Of a stretch of 48,144 nucleotides of DNA, positions 12,622-46,378 are shown piece after piece. The notes beneath the pieces were generated by a model. That model did no database searches, had not been told where the DNA came from, and saw only the letters and a program-made list of their open reading frames with translations. Source of the DNA: an uncultured Lachnospiraceae bacterium (lineage in GTDB: Bacteria; Bacillota; Clostridia; Lachnospirales; Lachnospiraceae); NCBI GenBank assembly GCA_951800145.1, contig CATOJE010000022.1:1-48144 (forward strand), read 5' to 3'. The position numbers and the translations under genes are program-made. The stretch's first letter is position 1, and every line of letters begins with the position of its first letter.

Positions 12622-13753
12622 CTAATCCTGAGCATGCTTATCCGGGCAGCCCAGACTAAGCCACTTTAAATACGCACTGATAAAGGGGTCTATTCCTCCA
12701 TTCAGCACTGCGTCCGTGTTCCCGCTCTCCTCCCCGGTCCGGTGATCCTTCACCATGGTGTAGGGCTGGAGCACATAGGAGCGGATCTGGTTCCCCCAGC
12801 CGATCTCCTTCACATCCCCCCGGATGTCCGAGATCTTTTCCGCGTTCTCCTGCTGCTTTAATAAAAGAAGCTTCGTCTTCAGCATCTGCATGGCCTTGTC
12901 TTTATTCTGAAACTGAGAACGCTCGTTCTGGCAGGTCACCACGATTCCTGTAGGAATGTGGGTGATCCGGATGGCGGATGAGGTTTTATTAATATGCTGG
13001 CCCCCAGCGCCGCTGGAGCGATAGGTGTCAATGCGCAGATCATCCATATTAATCTCCACATCCAGATCCTCCTGGATATCCGGCATCACATCGCAGGACA
13101 CAAAGGAGGTCTGCCGCTTCCCCGCCGCGTTAAAGGGGGAGATGCGGACCAGCCGGTGTACCCCCCGCTCAGACTTCAGATAGCCGAAAACATTCTCCCC
13201 ATTAATCTGGATAGTAACTGACTTTATCCCTGCCTCCTCACCGTCCAAAAAGTCCAGCACCTCTGTGGAAAAGCCCCGGCTGTCCGCCCACCGGCAGTAC
13301 ATCCGGTAAAGCATGCTGCACCAGTCGCAGGACTCGGTTCCCCCGGCGCCGGCATTTAACCGCAGGATGGCATTACAGTTATCGTACTCTCCTGTTAACA
13401 GGGTGCTGATCCGCATCTGATCCAGCTTCTCTGTAAATTCCTCCAGCATCCCCTGAATCTCCGGGATCAGCTCCGGATCATTCTCCTCGTAGCCCATCTC
13501 GATCATCAGCCCGATCTCCTCATAGGCTGTCTCCAGCTTCTGGAAATCCTCCACGGCATCCTTCAGATTCTTCGCTTCCTTCATCAGCTTGGTGGAGCGC
13601 TCCGCGTCATTCCAGAAGTCCGGCTCCTCCATGCTCTTGTCTAATTCGTCGATCCGCCTTAACTTATGATCTAAGTCAAAGTGAATCCCTCACTTCCACT
13701 AATGGTTTTTCATACGTTGATAACGTATATTTGAATTGATCTAATTCAACCAC
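12622..13753 (-). CDS. prfB: Peptide chain release factor 2, with programmed +1 frameshift
   Basis: 376 aa assembled from two frames. A 25-codon first frame starts at the GTG at 13753 (AGGTGA 5 nt upstream) and ends CTT TGA at 13681-13676. Skipping one T at 13678 puts the ribosome into the second frame (GAC at 13677) that runs to 12622. This is the autoregulatory RF2 frameshift: UGA is itself read by RF2. The internal SD-like GAGGGA sits just upstream of the slip codon. The protein has the tripeptide anticodon region ISPFN and the catalytic GAGGQ motif, and terminates at UGA/UAA codons. It releases nascent chains on the ribosome. Confidence 0.95.
13679..13695 (-). promoter_or_regulatory. RF2 recoding site with overlapping inverted repeat
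   Basis: The slip site CTT-TGA-C (13681-13675) is preceded by GAGGGA. AAGTGA (13695-13690) and TCACTT (13684-13679) form a perfect 6-bp inverted repeat that encloses the SD-like element and includes the slip codon. Confidence 0.7.
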
Positions 13754-24108: not shown

Positions 24109-26829
24109 TTATCTATTTTGCTCTTTTTTCTCGTTCCCCACAGTCTCCAGAAAAGCCGCTGTCTCCCCGTCCACATCCTGAAACAAAAGGTTCTGCTTTC
24201 GCCGTGGCTTTTCCAGGTATTCCTCCCGAAGCCTTTGACTGGCACTCTGGATCTCCTCCTTTAACTCCATGGCTGACATCCGAAGTCCGCCCTGGCCCAG
24301 GATAATCACCTGCTCCAGCCCGTCGGATGTAGCTACGGTTACCCGGTATTTTTTCCCCAGCTCGTGGACAGTCTTTTCGATGTATTGGTCCGCCGTCTCC
24401 GCCTCCTTTGTATAAACCACATATATATTGTGATATTTAAGGATCTCACATCGGTGGCCCTCCACACGGTACGCGTCAAAAACCAGTATCACACGGCACT
24501 GCTTCATCCCCTGATAGTTAGAAAGAATCTCCATCAGACGGCTGCGCGCCCCATCCATCGTGGTCTTAGACAGCTCCTTTAATTCTTCCCAGGAAAAGAT
24601 AATATTATATCCATCTACCAGAAGATATTCTTCTTCTGGCTCCCGCTTCTCCCAGCTCCGCTTGGAAAGGGAGCTGGAAGACTGAGGCATCGGCCTCCTT
24701 CCTCCGGATTTTTGGTACCGCGGCTTATCCTGATTTTTCTTATAGGTTCTCTGGAAAATCTCCTCCAGCTCCTTATCCATCGCCAGGCCTCCAAGATAGC
24801 TGTCCGGATAGCGGCTGTCCTTTGCCTCAGCGCTTCTTTCCTGCCAGGGACGTCTTTCCTCCTGCCCCCCTTGCTCTTCCTCTTCCGGAGCCGGAAGCGC
24901 TGCACTGCAGTCTACATGCATATATTCCTCCACCTGATACCAGGGAACGGTAAATCCGGCCCCGTGGGAACAGAAAACCGAATCCCCAGTATGCTCCAGA
25001 TCCAGCTCCGGATCATACCGGGAGGACGCCAACACCGCCTCCTCATTATGGCAGGGCTGGTATCCCTTCATGGTGCAGAAAATCCGGCCCAGCCCTCTGG
25101 AATAAGAGGCAACCGCTATGGGATATCCTCCCATTTCTGATACAGGGGCACTGCCTGTGAGAACCGCCGTCTCCCCCTGGATTTCCGGGCCTTCAAATAC
25201 CCCGCTCATCATCTGAATGTCTGACATGGCCCGTCCCACCACATCTACTGGAATTTCCAGACGGAACTCATAGTAGGGCTCTAAGAGCATGCTCCTGGCC
25301 TTCATCATTCCCTGGCGTACAGCCCGGTAGGTGGCCTGGCGGAAATCCCCGCCCTCTGTATGCTTTTGATGGGCGCGGCCACCGATCAGCGTAATCCTCA
25401 TGTCCGTAAGGGGCGCGCCTGTTAATACGCCTCTATGGCTTCGCTCCTCCAGGTGGGTCAGAATGAGCCGCTGCCAGTTCCGATCCAGCACATCCTCGCT
25501 GCATGCAGCGCCAAACTGCATCCCGCTTCCTCTTTCTCCCGGCTCCAGCAGCAGATGTACCTCTGCATAGTGGCGCAGAGGTTCGAAATGCCCCACGCCT
25601 TCCACTGGCTCCAAAAGCGTCTCCCGGTATACGATCTGTCCCTGCCCCAGCTCCACCTCTGTATCAAATCGCTCACTTATCAGACTTTTCAGTACATCGA
25701 TCTGAACCTCTCCCATAAGCTGGGCATAAATCTTCTGGGACTGCTCCTCCCACAAAATATGGAGCAGGGGCTCCTCCTCCTCCAGCTGCTGGAGCTTAGG
25801 CAGCATATCATGTACCCGGCAGCCTTCCGGGAATAAAATCTGATACGACAGCACCGGCTCCAGCACTGGCTCCAGCGAGGATATCTCCTCTCCCAGTCCC
25901 TGTCCTGCCCGTGTTCTGGTAAGCCCGCATACTGCACAGACCTCCCCTGCCCCCGCCTCTCCCACTGCTTCGTACTTTTCACCAGAATACATGCGGATCT
26001 GATTTACCTTTTCCTCCCAGGGCTCTTCCCCTCCCCCCTCCAGAGAATCCTTTACCTTCAGCCTTCCGCCGGTAATCTTCATAAAGGTAAGGCGGTTCCC
26101 CTGGGCATCCCTGGAAATCTTAAATACTTTTGCCCCAAAAGCTTCCGGGTAGCACTTGGGCTTTGTATATCCATCCAGGGCCTCCAAAAATTCCTTTACC
26201 CCAGTCATCTTAAGAGCCGATCCAAAATAGCAGGGAAATACCTTCCGCTCTGCAATCAGCCTCTGTATTTCCTCCTCCCCTATAGTTCCTGACTCAAGGT
26301 ACTGGTCTAATAGCTCCTCATCACATACTGCCAGATTCTCATAAAAGGAATCATCCGGCTGGGAGAAATCCACACAGCGTTCATCCAGTCCGGATTGCAG
26401 CTGCGCCAGAAGTGCCGCTTGATCCGCTCCTTCCTGATCCATCTTATTCACAAACACAAATACCGGGATCTGATATCTGGCAAGAAGCTTCCACAAGGTG
26501 AGCGTATGTCCCTGGATCCCGTCTGCCCCGCTCACCAGCAGGATCCCATAATCCAGCACCTGCAGGGTCCGCTCCATTTCCGCCGAAAAGTCTACATGCC
26601 CGGGCGTGTCTAACAGTGTTACCTCCATCTCCCCAAAGGAGAGCCTGGCCTGCTTCGAAAAAATAGTAATCCCTCTATCTCGTTCCATCTGGTAGGTGTC
26701 CAGAAATGTATTTCCAGAATCTACCTTTCCCAGCCTTCGGATACTTCCGCTTAAGTACAGCATTCCCTCTGAAAGAGTTGTTTTCCCTGCATCCACATGG
26801 GCCAGCATGCCTATTACCAGCTTCTTCAT
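24109..26829 (-). CDS. TetM-like translational GTPase fused to a YacP/Rae1-type NYN domain
   Basis: 906 aa. Residues 1-640 follow the EF-G/ribosomal-protection architecture: G1 AHVDAGKTT (10-18), DRGITI (51-56), G3 DTPGH (74-78), G4 NKMD (128-131), then domains II-V. The domain IV tip corresponding to TetM SPVSTPADFR reads AHQKHTEGGDFR, so the drug-displacing residues are not conserved. A charged linker (about 645-730) leads to a NYN/PIN domain at 733-870 with acidic residues D739 (LLVDGYN), D785 (LVFDAY), D814 (ETADQYIE) and D836 (ATSDG). YacP/Rae1 is a ribosome A-site mRNA endonuclease in B. subtilis. Inferred role: a ribosome-docked nuclease. Not a confident tetracycline-resistance gene. 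Confidence 0.88.
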   Translation of the reverse strand: MKKLVIGMLAHVDAGKTTLSEGMLYLSGSIRRLGKVDSGNTFLDTYQMERDRGITIFSKQARLSFGEMEVTLLDTPGHVDFSAEMERTLQVLDYGILLVSGADGIQGHTLTLWKLLARYQIPVFVFVNKMDQEGADQAALLAQLQSGLDERCVDFSQPDDSFYENLAVCDEELLDQYLESGTIGEEEIQRLIAERKVFPCYFGSALKMTGVKEFLEALDGYTKPKCYPEAFGAKVFKISRDAQGNRLTFMKITGGRLKVKDSLEGGGEEPWEEKVNQIRMYSGEKYEAVGEAGAGEVCAVCGLTRTRAGQGLGEEISSLEPVLEPVLSYQILFPEGCRVHDMLPKLQQLEEEEPLLHILWEEQSQKIYAQLMGEVQIDVLKSLISERFDTEVELGQGQIVYRETLLEPVEGVGHFEPLRHYAEVHLLLEPGERGSGMQFGAACSEDVLDRNWQRLILTHLEERSHRGVLTGAPLTDMRITLIGGRAHQKHTEGGDFRQATYRAVRQGMMKARSMLLEPYYEFRLEIPVDVVGRAMSDIQMMSGVFEGPEIQGETAVLTGSAPVSEMGGYPIAVASYSRGLGRIFCTMKGYQPCHNEEAVLASSRYDPELDLEHTGDSVFCSHGAGFTVPWYQVEEYMHVDCSAALPAPEEEEQGGQEERRPWQERSAEAKDSRYPDSYLGGLAMDKELEEIFQRTYKKNQDKPRYQKSGGRRPMPQSSSSLSKRSWEKREPEEEYLLVDGYNIIFSWEELKELSKTTMDGARSRLMEILSNYQGMKQCRVILVFDAYRVEGHRCEILKYHNIYVVYTKEAETADQYIEKTVHELGKKYRVTVATSDGLEQVIILGQGGLRMSAMELKEEIQSASQRLREEYLEKPRRKQNLLFQDVDGETAAFLETVGNEKKEQNR

Positions 26830-37013: not shown

Positions 37014-38306
37014 TTATTCGAACTCAATGGTCGCCGGCGGCTTCGGGCTCATATCGTAGCACACCCGGTTCACATGATCCACCTCTGTTAATATCCTGTC
37101 CGTAATTCTCCCCAGCACATCCCAATCCACCCGCTCGATGGTAGCGCTCATGGCATCGACGGTGTTGATGGCGCGAATGATGACCATGTAGTCAAAGCAT
37201 CTGGCGTTATTCTTCACGCCCACGGACTTAAAGTCCGGTACTACAGCAAAATACTGCCATACCTTCTTATCCAGTCCTGCCTTCTCGAATTCCTCCCGAA
37301 GAATCGCATCCGCCTCCCGCACAGCCTCCAGCCGGTCTCTGGTGATCGCCCCCAGACAGCGGACGCCCAGGCCCGGGCCCGGGAAGGGCTGACGGTAAAC
37401 CATGGTGGATGGAAGTCCCAGCTCTAAGCCGCAGGCCCGTACCTCATCCTTAAACAGCTGCTTTAGAGGCTCTACCAGTTCAAATTTTAAATCCTCCGGA
37501 AGCCCGCCTACATTGTGATGGGATTTTACCATCTTGGCAGTTTTGGTTCCGCTTTCGATGATATCCGGATAAATAGTTCCCTGTCCCAGGAAGTCGATCC
37601 CCTCCAGCTTCCTTGCCTCCTCTTCAAATACCCGGATAAACTCGCCGCCGATTATCTTCCGCTTCTGCTCCGGATCTGCGACTCCCTCCAGCTTTCCCAG
37701 GAAGCGTTCCACCGCATCCACATAGATCAGATTCGCCTTCAGCTGGTTCTGGAATACTTCGACGACGCTTTCTGACTCATTTTTCCGCATCAAGCCGTGA
37801 TTAACATGGACACATACCAGCTGCTTTCCAATGGCTTTAATCAGCAGCGCCGCTACCACCGAGGAATCCACACCGCCGGAAAGAGCCAGCAGCACCTTTT
37901 TATCCCCTACCTGCTGCCGGATCCGCTCCACCTGATCCTCAATAAAATTCTTCATATTCCAATTTGCCTGTGCCTGGCAGGTATCAAACACAAATTCCTT
38001 TAACAGGGCTATATCCGGCAGTGCAGGCAGCTTCGCTTCACACTTGGCCGTGGGATGATCGATGGCCAGCATAGGATACCCGCAGTGATACAAGGCAGGG
38101 TCAATCTCCACAGCAACGCCGTCCACAATGCGGTTTTCCCCGCCATTCAGTATGATTCCCTTCACATTCTGCAGTTTTTCCAGCTCCTTTGGGGTAATAT
38201 CGTGAGGATGGATCTCGCTGTACACCCTCAGCTCCCGAATCTGGCGGGCAAGTTGAGCATTCTCCGTGCTGCCCAAATCAAGAATAACGATCATATCCTG
38301 CTTCAT
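37014..38306 (-). CDS. GMP synthase with a gutted glutaminase domain
   Basis: 430 aa, about 85 shorter than the second GuaA in this window. Residues 1-115 align with the start and last helix of the GATase domain, but about 90 residues between are missing: the nucleophile Cys of GICYG is Asp83 in LAIDHP, and the His-Glu pair (FHPE) is gone. The ATP pyrophosphatase domain is intact (ALSGGVDSS at 141-149) and so is the dimerisation domain ending PKPPATIEFE. It should convert XMP to GMP only with free ammonia or with an amidotransferase supplied in trans. SD AAGGAG lies 8 nt before the ATG. No guanine riboswitch is seen. Confidence 0.9.
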   Translation of the reverse strand: MKQDMIVILDLGSTENAQLARQIRELRVYSEIHPHDITPKELEKLQNVKGIILNGGENRIVDGVAVEIDPALYHCGYPMLAIDHPTAKCEAKLPALPDIALLKEFVFDTCQAQANWNMKNFIEDQVERIRQQVGDKKVLLALSGGVDSSVVAALLIKAIGKQLVCVHVNHGLMRKNESESVVEVFQNQLKANLIYVDAVERFLGKLEGVADPEQKRKIIGGEFIRVFEEEARKLEGIDFLGQGTIYPDIIESGTKTAKMVKSHHNVGGLPEDLKFELVEPLKQLFKDEVRACGLELGLPSTMVYRQPFPGPGLGVRCLGAITRDRLEAVREADAILREEFEKAGLDKKVWQYFAVVPDFKSVGVKNNARCFDYMVIIRAINTVDAMSATIERVDWDVLGRITDRILTEVDHVNRVCYDMSPKPPATIEFE

Positions 38307-42371: not shown

Positions 42372-44051
42372 TTAGATATTCGCTGCAGACCTCCTTCCAG
42401 CTATTTTGCGGCTGTCTTTCGATAGCTGGATCACCCTTGTGGCAATCTGTTGCTGAAACCGCACATCGTGATCCACAATAAGCATCGTTGGCTTATAGGC
42501 CAGCAGCAGCTCCTCGATCTGCATCCGGGAAAACAGGTCAATATAATTCAGCGGCTCATCCCACAGATACAGGTGGGCCGGCGTCAGCAGGCTGGCTGCA
42601 ATCAATACCTTTTTCTTCTGCCCTTCAGAATAATTCTCCATATTCTTCTCAAATTGCACCCGCTCCATATCCAGCTGCCGGAGAATCGCGCAAAATACGC
42701 TTTCCTCCAGCCCTTGCTTCCAGCAAAAATCCTTCACACTTCCCTGGAGAAAGGAGGTATCCTGATTAATATAAGAAATAATCAATCCAGAAGCCAGCTT
42801 CAGCTCTCCCTGCTCCAGGAAATGTATTCCCTCCTCTTGGGAACCAGGCTTATCTGCCTCTCCAGCGAACGGACTGGTACTGCTTTGCAACCATGGAAGC
42901 CTCTTTTGCGCCGTATCCTTACAGGCAGGTGCTTGCTGCCTCTGGAGTCTTTGGGTTTGGAGTATTGCTTTCAGCAGACTGGATTTTCCGCAGCCATTTG
43001 CTCCCTGAATAAAAATTCGTTCTCCCTGACTGACTGAAAAGCTTAAATCCTCAAACAGCAGCTTCTCTCCGTCCGGATACCCCAGCCCATAGTGGCTGGC
43101 AATGATACAGGTATTCTTTTCATGCCTCAAGGGATTCAGCTTTAGGCTGACAGGGGTTTCTATATCCTTTAGCAGTCCCTCCTTCTCATGAATTTCCTGC
43201 TGGATGCGGTTCTCCATCTGCTTTACCCGGCTCTGCATCTTCTTCGTCTTTGCGCCGATATAAGGCCGGGTGCCGATAAAGCGGTCATGCTCCTTTGATG
43301 GGTTAAACCCGATCTTCATGCCCTCATTCTTATCCGCCCACTGCCGGGCCTGCTTTGAGGCTGCCTTCAGCTTGGAAATTTCCTTCCGGTGCTTCTCATT
43401 TTCCTTTTGGGCAAAGGCATCCTTTCTCTGCTTGTTCTCCTGCCAGCTGGAAAAGTTCCCTGCCTGCACCTCGATGGTTTGACGATTTAATACCAGCACA
43501 TGATCGATGCATCCGTCCAGAAAGTCCCGGTCATGGGACACCAGAATAAATCCCTTTTTTCTGGCCAGATACTCCTTAACCGTTTCTCTGGCCTCCTGAT
43601 CCAGATGATTGGTGGGTTCATCAATCAACAGGAAATGGTTCTCCCCGGAAAACAGCAGCGCCAGCAAAATCTTCGTCCGCTCGCCGAAGCTTAAGGTGCC
43701 AAAGGGACGATACATCACATCGCCTTCCAGCCCTAATTGATTCAGCTCGCAAAAGATACGCCACTCCTCCCATCCTGGCTTCAGCTCCTCTGCAAATTCT
43801 GCTGCCGGTCTTTCCAGATATTCCCTTGGAATCCCATAGGGAAAATACTCGAATTCCACACTGGACTGAATGGAGCCAATGTATTCATACTTTCCCAGCA
43901 GCAGATTTAAAAATGTTGTCTTTCCTTTTCCATTTCTCCCAATAAAGCCTAATTTCCAGTTGGTATCAATGGAAAATGAAGTATTGTCAAAAATATTGTC
44001 AAAGCTCCCTTCATAATAGAAGGTGAGATTATTAACACGGATCTGAGACAT
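42372..44051 (-). CDS. Lsa-type ABC-F ribosomal protection protein
   Basis: 559 aa from the ATG at 44051, 7 nt after AAGGAGG. Two ABC domains without membrane segments: Walker A1 GRNGKGKT, signature LSFGERTKI, Walker B1 LIDEPTNHLD; a charged linker at about 195-300; Walker A2 GANGCGKS, signature YSEGQKKKV, Walker B2 LWDEPLNYID. The N-terminus and the LNYID element match Lsa(A)-like proteins, which displace lincosamides, streptogramins A and pleuromutilins from the ribosome. An unusual 40-residue insertion follows Walker A2. Its 270-nt leader holds a terminator hairpin with a three-codon ORF, so antibiotic-induced expression is likely. Confidence 0.9.
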   Translation of the reverse strand: MSQIRVNNLTFYYEGSFDNIFDNTSFSIDTNWKLGFIGRNGKGKTTFLNLLLGKYEYIGSIQSSVEFEYFPYGIPREYLERPAAEFAEELKPGWEEWRIFCELNQLGLEGDVMYRPFGTLSFGERTKILLALLFSGENHFLLIDEPTNHLDQEARETVKEYLARKKGFILVSHDRDFLDGCIDHVLVLNRQTIEVQAGNFSSWQENKQRKDAFAQKENEKHRKEISKLKAASKQARQWADKNEGMKIGFNPSKEHDRFIGTRPYIGAKTKKMQSRVKQMENRIQQEIHEKEGLLKDIETPVSLKLNPLRHEKNTCIIASHYGLGYPDGEKLLFEDLSFSVSQGERIFIQGANGCGKSSLLKAILQTQRLQRQQAPACKDTAQKRLPWLQSSTSPFAGEADKPGSQEEGIHFLEQGELKLASGLIISYINQDTSFLQGSVKDFCWKQGLEESVFCAILRQLDMERVQFEKNMENYSEGQKKKVLIAASLLTPAHLYLWDEPLNYIDLFSRMQIEELLLAYKPTMLIVDHDVRFQQQIATRVIQLSKDSRKIAGRRSAANI

Positions 44052-44203
44052 ATTCATTCCTCCTTCCGTCCCCTTGTCCGCTGAGGGCAGCCTCACCGCG
44101 ACAAGTATACAGACCTGTGGGAACAACTCTGTTTCATCCTGCAGTCAAAGAAGAAGGATCTCAAAACTCGCTTTCTGTTATCAAAACTCCGAATTTTTCC
44201 AAC

Positions 44204-44445: not shown

Positions 44446-44836
44446 ATACATAAGAGGAAACAGATTTTAACCCGCTGGGTTTGCCCTTGAAAGGCACAAA
44501 GGATACTGGCAGGCGCGCACATAAGAAAAGGCAGCGAGATACAAAAGACAGCCCTAACGTCCTCCTCAGGAGGAGCGTTCACCCCAGTTGCGTTACAAAA
44601 GATGTCGCGGTCGATATCGCAAATACCTCTTCAAAAGATAGACGCCTGTCACAATAAGAAGTACATAAGCAAACAGCCGGATTCAATCTTGATGATGGCA
44701 GAATGAATGAGGGTGTACCTGGAACATGGAAGCATGGGAAGGGTACCCCTTCATTTCCGTAATCAGGCATAAGCTCTGTGCCAACACGGGATTCGATTCA
44801 CTTGCACAAATGATGAATAAAGTAAAGGAGTTGACT
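44446..44836 (+). promoter_or_regulatory. Long structured leader of guaA, class unknown
   Basis: About 390 nt without a convincing ORF. Visible elements: a strong hairpin AACG-TCCTCC/GGAGGA-CGTT at about 44557-44581, a small AACCC/GGGTT hairpin at about 44470, AAGAGG (44452) able to pair with CCTCTT (44627) and so enclose the first half, and GGGTGTACC with GGTACCCC near 44711-44750. No purine riboswitch core, T-box or ykkC motif was recognised. It may be an unlisted cis-regulatory RNA or a separate small RNA. Confidence 0.45.
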
Positions 44837-46378
44837 ATGAATCGCGAGCTAATCCTTGTCCTGGATTTCGGCGGTCAGTATAATCAGCTGATCGCGCGCC
44901 GCATCCGGGAATGCAATGTCTACTGTGAAGTTCAACCATATACCATAGGTCTGGATCAGATTAAAGCCATGAAACCCAAAGGGATTATCTTTACCGGTGG
45001 CCCCAACAGCGTATATTTGGAGGAATCCCCACACATCTCACAGGATATCTTTGATCTGGGCATCCCGATTCTGGGAATATGCTATGGCTCCCAGCTGATG
45101 GCCTACACCCTGGGCGGACAGGTGGACACAGCGCCGGTAAGCGAATATGGAAAAACAGAAGTTGAGCCGGACCATACCTCTGTTCTTTTCAGACAGGTGG
45201 CACAGACTACCATCTGCTGGATGAGTCACACCGATTATATCGCCTCAGTTCCCCAGGGCTTCCGAATCACTGCCCACACCCCGGTATGTCCGGTGGCGGC
45301 GATGGAATATCCGGAGAAAAAGCTGTATGCCACCCAGTTTCATCCAGAGGTAATGCACACAGCGGAAGGCATGAAAATGCTTCACAGCTTTGTATACCAG
45401 GTCTGTGAATGCAGCGGCAGCTGGAAGATGGATTCCTTCGCCCAGGCTGCAATCCAGGAGCTTCGGGAAAAAATCGGTGATGGCAAGGTACTATGCGCTT
45501 TGTCCGGCGGTGTGGATTCCTCGGTAGCTGCTGTGCTTCTGTCAAAGGCGGTGGGCCGGCAGCTCACCTGTGTATTCGTTGACCACGGCCTTCTGCGGAA
45601 AAATGAGGGCGACGAGGTGGAAGCGGTCTTCGGCCCAGATGGACCTTACGAGCTAAATTTCATCCGTGTCAATGCCCAGGAGCGGTTTTACCGCAAATTA
45701 GCCGGAGTAGAGGAGCCTGAGGAAAAGCGGAAGATCATTGGCGCTGAGTTTATTCAGGTATTTGAGGAGGAGGCGAATCGGATCGGCGCTGTGGACTACT
45801 TAGTTCAGGGCACCATCTATCCTGATGTAATTGAGTCCGGGCTGGGCAAGTCTGCTGTGATTAAATCCCATCACAATGTAGGAGGCCTTCCGGACTGTGT
45901 GAATTTTAAAGAGATCATCGAGCCCCTGCGCCTTCTCTTTAAGGATGAAGTCCGCAAGGTGGGCCTGGAGCTGGGGATTCCTGAATACCTGGTATTCCGC
46001 CAGCCCTTCCCTGGTCCTGGCCTGGGAATCCGGATTGTGGGAGAAGTAACTGCAGACAAGGTTCGGATCGTCCAGGAAGCGGATTTTATATATCGTGAGG
46101 AAATCCGAAAGGCCGGGATTGATATGAACCTGGGACAGTATTTTGCTGCTCTGTCTAATATGCGGTCTGTGGGCGTGATGGGAGATTTCCGTACCTATGA
46201 TTATGCAGTGGTGCTGCGGGCAGTGGAGACCTCGGATTTCATGACCGCAGAGGCGGCGAACCTTCCCTGGGAAGTACTCCAGAAGGCCATGAACCGGATT
46301 GTCAATGAGGTCAAGGGGGTAAATCGGGTGCTTTATGACCTGACCTCGAAGCCGCCGGGGACCATTGAGTTCGAGTAA
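44837..46378 (+). CDS. guaA: GMP synthase (glutamine-hydrolysing), complete
   Basis: 513 aa from the ATG at 44837, 6 nt after AAAGGAG; upstream in-frame ATGs lack an SD. It makes GMP from XMP, ATP and glutamine. The GATase class I triad is intact: Cys82 in GICYGSQ, His169 and Glu171 in FHPEV. The PP-loop is ALSGGVDSS near residue 219, and the C-terminal dimerisation domain ends KPPGTIEFE. It has a long leader and a hairpin terminator. The paralogue at 37014-38306 lacks the triad. The 3' end of guaA is a known integration site for genomic islands. Confidence 0.95.

Follow-up and report, generated by a model that had tools for sequence, protein, structure and literature searches.

A translational GTPase fused to a Rae1-type NYN nuclease domain in Lachnospiraceae

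The ribosomal region in which Rae1 (YacP) acts also receives EF-G-like translation factors, and we know of no settled account of how Rae1 itself gains access to the ribosome. Rae1 is described as an endoribonuclease of the ribosomal A site (Leroy 2017, cited in PMC6613710); in Bacillus subtilis it is a standalone protein with no GTPase attached, and its gene lies beside and is co-transcribed with yacO, the rlmB homolog (PMC6613710). NYN domains have been noted on Tet proteins of ten Clostridiales species, for which RNase-based resistance was suggested (Atkinson 2015, PMC4342817). Here we describe a gene, on contig CATOJE010000022.1 of assembly GCA_951800145.1 from an uncultured Lachnospiraceae bacterium, that encodes an EF-G-type GTPase and a Rae1-type NYN domain in a single chain; positions 1 to 48,144 of the contig were analyzed and are called the window. 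The combination of Tet and YacP-like NYN reported by Atkinson 2015 has the same architecture and very probably represents the same protein family; in PMC4342817 those proteins are called Tet and tied to resistance, whereas the fusion described here belongs to a separate clade, has loops of its own, occurs family-wide, and has apparently replaced yacP. We found no account of the fusion in the open-licence literature beyond PMC4342817, and an earlier mention elsewhere is possible. In the available portions of the respective papers, none of six ribosomal protection genes tested in E. coli (PMC7725328) could be tied to this subfamily, and PMC12904643 and PMC11737165 contain nothing on it. To judge from these searches, four points are new to the literature: the subfamily forms a clade of its own, the fusion is distributed family-wide, it derives from a GTPase lacking NYN, and the yacP slot has been emptied or is decaying.

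Architecture of the fused protein

An EF-G/TetM-like GTPase joined to a Rae1-like NYN domain in 906 residues had been proposed from the DNA letters in an initial annotation, and a Pfam domain search finds both halves. The coordinates given there were correct but came without the strand, which is minus; the plus strand of 24109-26829 has many stops and no continuous frame. The parts of the gene are as follows.

24109..26829, minus strand: whole fused gene, 906 amino acids, ATG start (open reading frame and Pfam search)
26161..26817, minus strand: GTPase (G) domain GTP_EFTU, residues 5-223, containing His78 and the full set of G motifs (Pfam, alignment)
25894..26133, minus strand: EF-G domain II (EF-G_D2), residues 233-312 (Pfam)
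25642..25860, minus strand: EF-G domain III (EFG_III), residues 324-396 (Pfam, below cut-off)
25297..25641, minus strand: EF-G domain IV (EFG_IV), residues 397-511 (Pfam)
25342..25380, minus strand: domain IV tip loop III, residues 484-496, GRAHQKHTEGGDF (alignment)
25042..25287, minus strand: EF-G C-terminal domain (EFG_C), residues 515-596 (Pfam)
24916..24981, minus strand: subfamily C-terminal hallmark, residues 617-638, SVFCSHGAGFTVPWYQVEEYMH (pattern count across rows)
24640..24885, minus strand: flexible linker, residues 649-730 (AlphaFold)
24742..24786, minus strand: predicted short helix in the linker, residues 682-696, mostly of low confidence (AlphaFold and row comparison)
24145..24624, minus strand: NYN_YacP (Rae1-type) nuclease domain, residues 736-895 (Pfam, profile comparison)
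24613..24615, minus strand: D739, aligned to Rae1 D7 (alignment, numbering counted by hand)
24475..24477, minus strand: D785, aligned to Rae1 D53 (alignment, numbering counted by hand)
24388..24390, minus strand: D814, aligned to Rae1 D81 (alignment, numbering counted by hand)
24322..24324, minus strand: D836, aligned to Rae1 D104 (alignment, numbering counted by hand)

The G motifs AHVDAGKTT, RGITI, DTPGHVDF (containing His78), NKMD, and GSALK are all present in the alignment, as had been claimed. With these motifs and EF-G-like domains II to V, the fused protein has the defining features of the translational GTPase superfamily, domain III falling just under threshold (24.7 bits against a Pfam cut-off of 27). 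In the whole-chain AlphaFold model, the predicted local distance difference test (pLDDT) is below 50 throughout the linker except near residues 689-693, and the helix predicted there has the consensus KELExIFxRTY. The C-terminal α/β domain that follows has block-mean pLDDT of 77-95 (residues 731-830) and 68-90 (residues 831-870).

NYN_YacP is matched at 176.7 bits, against a cut-off of 24.6. As a 13-row profile, this part matches the B. subtilis YacP/Rae1 chains 5MQ8 and 5MQ9 at ~7e-39 and aligns with solved Rae1 across 144 residues, the four acidic positions coinciding. These residues, singled out as conserved in the initial annotation, are invariant across an alignment of 79 NYN domains, of which 45 are fused; the loci L045 and L050 do not enter it, their longest NYN matches each falling under 110 residues. 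At L045 (genome G130), where the fused frame has 1095 amino acids, the NYN match is broken in two, as would result from an insert within the domain. Fold comparison of the predicted structure spanned residues 1-617, with EF-G as the best structural fit; no YacP chain is listed because GTPase matches fill the list. The searches and model confirm, at the level of sequence, that one chain combines an EF-G-type GTPase (residues 5-596) with a YacP/Rae1-type NYN domain (residues 736-895), the two connected by a disordered linker, and they support assignment of the NYN domain to the Rae1 type with intact active-site motifs.

Distribution and the yacP slot

NYN_YacP was searched in 535 distinct genomes drawn from overlapping samples of the same family (150), order (146), and phylum (249), and is present in 135, 123, and 134 of these, respectively, one of the phylum matches lying below the family's cut-off. 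It lies in a frame of at least 848 amino acids in 119 family, 48 order, and 16 phylum genomes, 174 distinct genomes in all, every one of which also matches the GTPase profile. Since the fusion recurs in 174 of 535 genomes, the join is not an assembly accident. Among NYN-bearing family genomes, 119 of 135 hold NYN and GTPase in one such frame; the fused state is thus normal in the Lachnospiraceae sample. The best 80 of 584 loci in a named collection are mostly from Lachnospiraceae, e.g., Blautia, Roseburia, Mediterraneibacter, Robinsoniella, and Eisenbergiella, and comprise 74 full fusions and six NYN genes without an in-frame GTPase, some cut by a contig end or split. One fused homolog is labeled "translation factor GTPase family protein" in RefSeq.

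Whether a separate yacP persists beside the fusion, a check proposed in the initial annotation, was examined at the rlmB locus. Standalone yacP directly follows rlmB (verified with TIGR00186) in 27 of 32 loci, and a sigH-like gene lies one or two genes beyond it in 24 of 32. The names sigH, mrnC, and cysS are our presumptive assignments from sequence and the B. subtilis gene order. We viewed the rlmB region in 28 fusion genomes (in G527 the rlmB match is under its cut-off) and in two controls with standalone yacP, one with yacP between rlmB and the sigH-like gene (G205) and one with yacP directly after rlmB (G024). Seventeen of the 18 scorable fusion genomes have no yacP between rlmB and the sigH-like gene, the gaps measuring 18-341 bases; the 18th, G199, retains a yacP relict in the slot with in-frame stops and a missing stretch. 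G170, checked separately after a second short match, keeps only the first ~30 yacP codons there. In the window's genome, which is 86% complete, NYN_YacP matches nothing besides the fusion. Apart from G170, fusion genomes with a second NYN piece are G039 (139 amino acids, at a contig start) and G076 (56 amino acids, below cut-off). Replacement of standalone yacP by the fusion is well supported by these comparisons, and the simplest reading would be that standalone yacP decayed once the fused copy had assumed its role.

Closely similar fused genes occur across several families of the phylum in the GTPase tree (L033, L052-L054, L061, L062, L064-L071, and L102), and this cluster includes both relict-bearing genomes (L054 is from G199, L062 from G170), which suggests that within the cluster the fusion may have spread horizontally, with loss of the native yacP afterward. 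The query is covered to at least 80% in two plasmid and two phage records. Spread by phage or plasmid was considered and set aside, as the one plasmid record viewed, which is 517 kb long and has secA and spore-coat genes close to the match, looks chromosome-like. The unannotated fecal "Bacteriophage sp." records MT835563 and MT835514 carry nearly the whole fused gene and may be bacterial contigs.

Relationship to Tet proteins and NYN-less GTPases

TetM, TetO, and TetS share an EF-G-like layout and similar length with the fusion and are ~27-30% identical to it over residues 1 to ~592; they differ in the domain IV tip loops, the C-terminal tail, and the clade, and have no NYN domain. EF-G shares the G motifs and domains I-V, its alignment to the fusion skipping EF-G residues 168-214, and has the tip loop VDSSEMAF where the fusion has KHTEGGDF; the fusion adds the C-terminal hallmark, linker, and NYN domain. 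All three domain IV tip loops differ from those of both Tet and EF-G in the alignment. The initial annotation had stated that the TetM loop is not conserved, and indeed loop III is of the type GRAHxKHTEGGDF in this subfamily, in fused and NYN-less members alike, versus YYSPVSTPADF in six TetM/O/S rows. Under a strict pattern, the C-terminal hallmark is present in 40 of the 47 fused rows, in 17 of the 20 NYN-less ones, and in none of 30 Tet, EF-G-like, and other rows; a looser pattern fits 120 of 121 fused rows. A metal site in the hallmark was considered and rejected, its Cys and His varying under wider sampling.

Among NCBIfam models, tet_protect is the best for the whole protein at 407.6 bits, far under its 775-bit cut-off, versus 852.6 bits for the comparator L175. 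The EF-G model (TIGR00484) gives 302.6 bits, under its cut-off of 659.4. The top Protein Data Bank (PDB) match is TetO, practically tied with EF-G. In a 61-row tree chosen from 97 rows, with the long-branch L170 left out, fused and NYN-less GTPases form one clade (support 100/99), whose sister is a group of TetM/O/S and uncharacterized relatives (support 99/95). The approximately unbiased (AU) test rejects a tree that unites this subfamily with TetM/O/S alone (p 0.00027). Both GTPase trees exclude duplicates (L112-L117, L120-L128, L130, and L131), fusions cut by a contig end (L118 and L119), and genes that are partial or look broken (L129, L160, L161, and L180), and L048 was dropped by the coverage filter. 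These results support the GTPase half as a distinct subfamily related to EF-G and ribosomal protection proteins and outside the TetM/O/S clade; a tetracycline-resistance label, already questioned in the initial annotation, is therefore doubtful.

NYN-less matches to the GTPase profile are ~640-690 amino acids long and score 588-808 bits, well above proteins with Tet-like scores at ~374-394, uncharacterized relatives up to ~504, and EF-G pieces at ~125-253. The fused GTPases have a single origin in the 61-row tree (support 100/99), with one NYN-less protein, from an L. salivarius plasmid, nested inside and probably reflecting NYN loss. From the sequence tree, the fused GTPase appears to have arisen once, from within an older NYN-less GTPase clade. 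The nested protein (L182, 5986-7920, beside rpsN and without NYN) is named a TetM-family tetracycline resistance protein in RefSeq, possibly a misannotation given its position within the fused subfamily. Two NYN-less GTPase genes, L161 (G099) and L160 (G173), look broken, having an in-frame stop or two frames, and standalone yacP is present in these genomes. Pairwise identities of the GTPase and NYN halves correlate across 44 fused rows (Spearman 0.59); matched change of the halves was rejected as an explanation, shared descent alone accounting for the value.

Of the fusion-free genomes, 19 of the 201 that have a standalone yacP carry the NYN-less GTPase, versus 1 of the 152 without yacP. Fisher p values, uncorrected for relatedness, are 2e-4 pooled, 0.003 stratified, and 0.003 in the family alone, which is suggestive of a tendency of the NYN-less GTPase to accompany an unlinked yacP. 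The counts were compiled by hand from search tables. G173 and G099 were counted despite their broken-looking GTPase genes, and G326, below the family's cut-off, was counted as standalone; G232, whose fusion is cut by a contig end, was excluded, and G516 (504 bits) was left out of the subfamily count, since its protein, L162, groups with the other clade in the tree. Genomes with split, partial, or contig-cut genes (G042, G095, G128, G140, G006, G098, G135, and G188) were scored as neither intact fusion nor standalone, and G164, being in both order and phylum samples, is counted twice among the 152 yacP-less genomes, of which 151 are distinct.

Proposed function and significance

On balance, we lean toward the fusion being the Rae1 (YacP) of the Lachnospiraceae tethered to a translational GTPase, a housekeeping factor in which the GTPase would bring the nuclease to the ribosome. 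The initial annotation suggested a GTP-driven factor that docks on stalled or drug-bound ribosomes and cleaves the mRNA; these points, like the GTP-gated mechanism set out below with its trigger, its sequence of events, and its use of GTP, are inferred. The GTP-bound EF-G-like part would dock at the factor site of a ribosome with an empty or blocked A site, and the tip of domain IV, which carries a conserved KHT loop of its own, would probe or clear that site. After GTP hydrolysis the GTPase part would withdraw, and the NYN domain, on its ~80-residue disordered tether, would enter the A site, either of that ribosome or of a neighboring one, and cut the mRNA as Rae1 does in B. subtilis. The fused protein would thus act in mRNA decay or ribosome quality control as a housekeeping factor and not as a drug-resistance gene. 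A more specific version, which we entertain tentatively, is a bacterial no-go-decay machine gated by GTP, in which the GTPase recognizes and clears a blocked A site and hands the ribosome to the tethered Rae1 for codon cleavage; it would have replaced free Rae1 across the Lachnospiraceae, with the unfused pair acting in trans in some relatives.

Several observations weigh against delivery by the GTPase and the replacement history attached to it. Since EF-G-type domain IV and Rae1 presumably share the A site as their place of action, the two could not work there simultaneously. Neither half is found in 15 of the 150 family genomes, and 182 of 201 standalone-yacP genomes are without this GTPase; NYN action therefore does not need it. 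G161 (77% complete) has the NYN-less GTPase with no yacP found, and the co-occurrence does not reach significance when the order sample (p 0.29) or the phylum sample (p 0.50) is taken by itself, relatedness again uncorrected. Ten of the 28 fusion genomes viewed at rlmB, including the window's and G527, are unscorable because the sigH-like gene is out of view; within the ~1.5 kb examined by rlmB they show neither yacP nor a sigH-like gene. The NYN tree (180 columns) shows no single fused origin, fused and standalone domains meeting in an unresolved fork, and a single origin therefore rests on the GTPase half.

The order of the two activities could also be reversed: the NYN domain would cut the mRNA as Rae1 does and the GTPase would then split or advance the ribosome on the truncated message instead of delivering the nuclease, so that the fusion couples two consecutive steps, much as EF-G or mitochondrial EF-G2 acts in recycling. 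We regard this as unlikely but worth serious attention; the fold similarity to EF-G reflects common descent and the predicted conformation and cannot separate it from delivery. We give considerably less weight to a role in maturation of rRNA or tRNA or in ribosome assembly, with the GTPase checking new ribosomes and the NYN domain trimming RNA. In its favor, such a role was proposed earlier for YacP-like NYN domains (cited in PMC4342817), and standalone yacP adjoins rlmB and an mrnC-like gene, both presumably related to rRNA. Against it, later work describes Rae1 as an mRNA endonuclease of the ribosomal A site (PMC6613710).

The reading suggested in Atkinson 2015, in which a Tet-type factor equipped with an RNase protects from tetracycline or another antibiotic, appears similarly improbable. 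The best whole-protein model, the top PDB match, and the RefSeq name of the NYN-less L. salivarius relative speak for it, but the score lies far below the model's cut-off, the loops are unlike those of TetM/O/S, the joint clade is rejected, and the gene is present family-wide. Moreover, at least 14 fusion genomes also have a separate protein of 643-644 amino acids with Tet-like scores, one of which, L175, passes the TetM/W/O/S model, and the fusion loci have no gene neighborhood in common. Score, loops, clade, and distribution together make tetracycline resistance an unlikely primary role.

No neighbor with a fixed position, and hence no candidate operon partner, was found among 46 fusion loci; the commonest neighbor clusters, named by eye, are one of ABC-type ATPases, to which fusion loci contribute 11 members, and one of MATE-like proteins (9 members), at scattered positions. 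In the window, a HicB-like antitoxin gene (PF15919; 23818-24093, minus strand) starts 15 bases after the stop of the fused gene, and among the immediate neighbors listed a similar gene was recognized only behind L041, a same-genus copy. Rfam at gathering threshold finds two tRNAs and no regulatory RNA across the window. Farther away lie prfB (release factor 2; 12625-13632, minus strand; TIGR00020, 500 bits), with a CTT TGA site upstream (13676-13681, minus strand) that we take to be at the position of its programmed frameshift, and an ABC-F protein (42372-44126, minus strand) related to Lsa-type ribosomal protection proteins (613.8 bits, under the 750 cut-off and above the general ABC-F cut-off). 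A 430-amino acid protein (37014-38306, minus strand) matches the C-terminal part of GMP synthase at 560 bits, and a second, longer GMP synthase-like frame lies nearby (44726-46378, plus strand).

Relatives named TetM-family resistance proteins may be ordinary translation factors, and such names would inflate counts of the gut resistome. The covalent link to a GTPase, kept in most of the genomes sampled from a major gut family while yacP was lost or is decaying, points to a partner for the access of Rae1 to the ribosome, and the presence of both activities in one fused protein makes that question testable.
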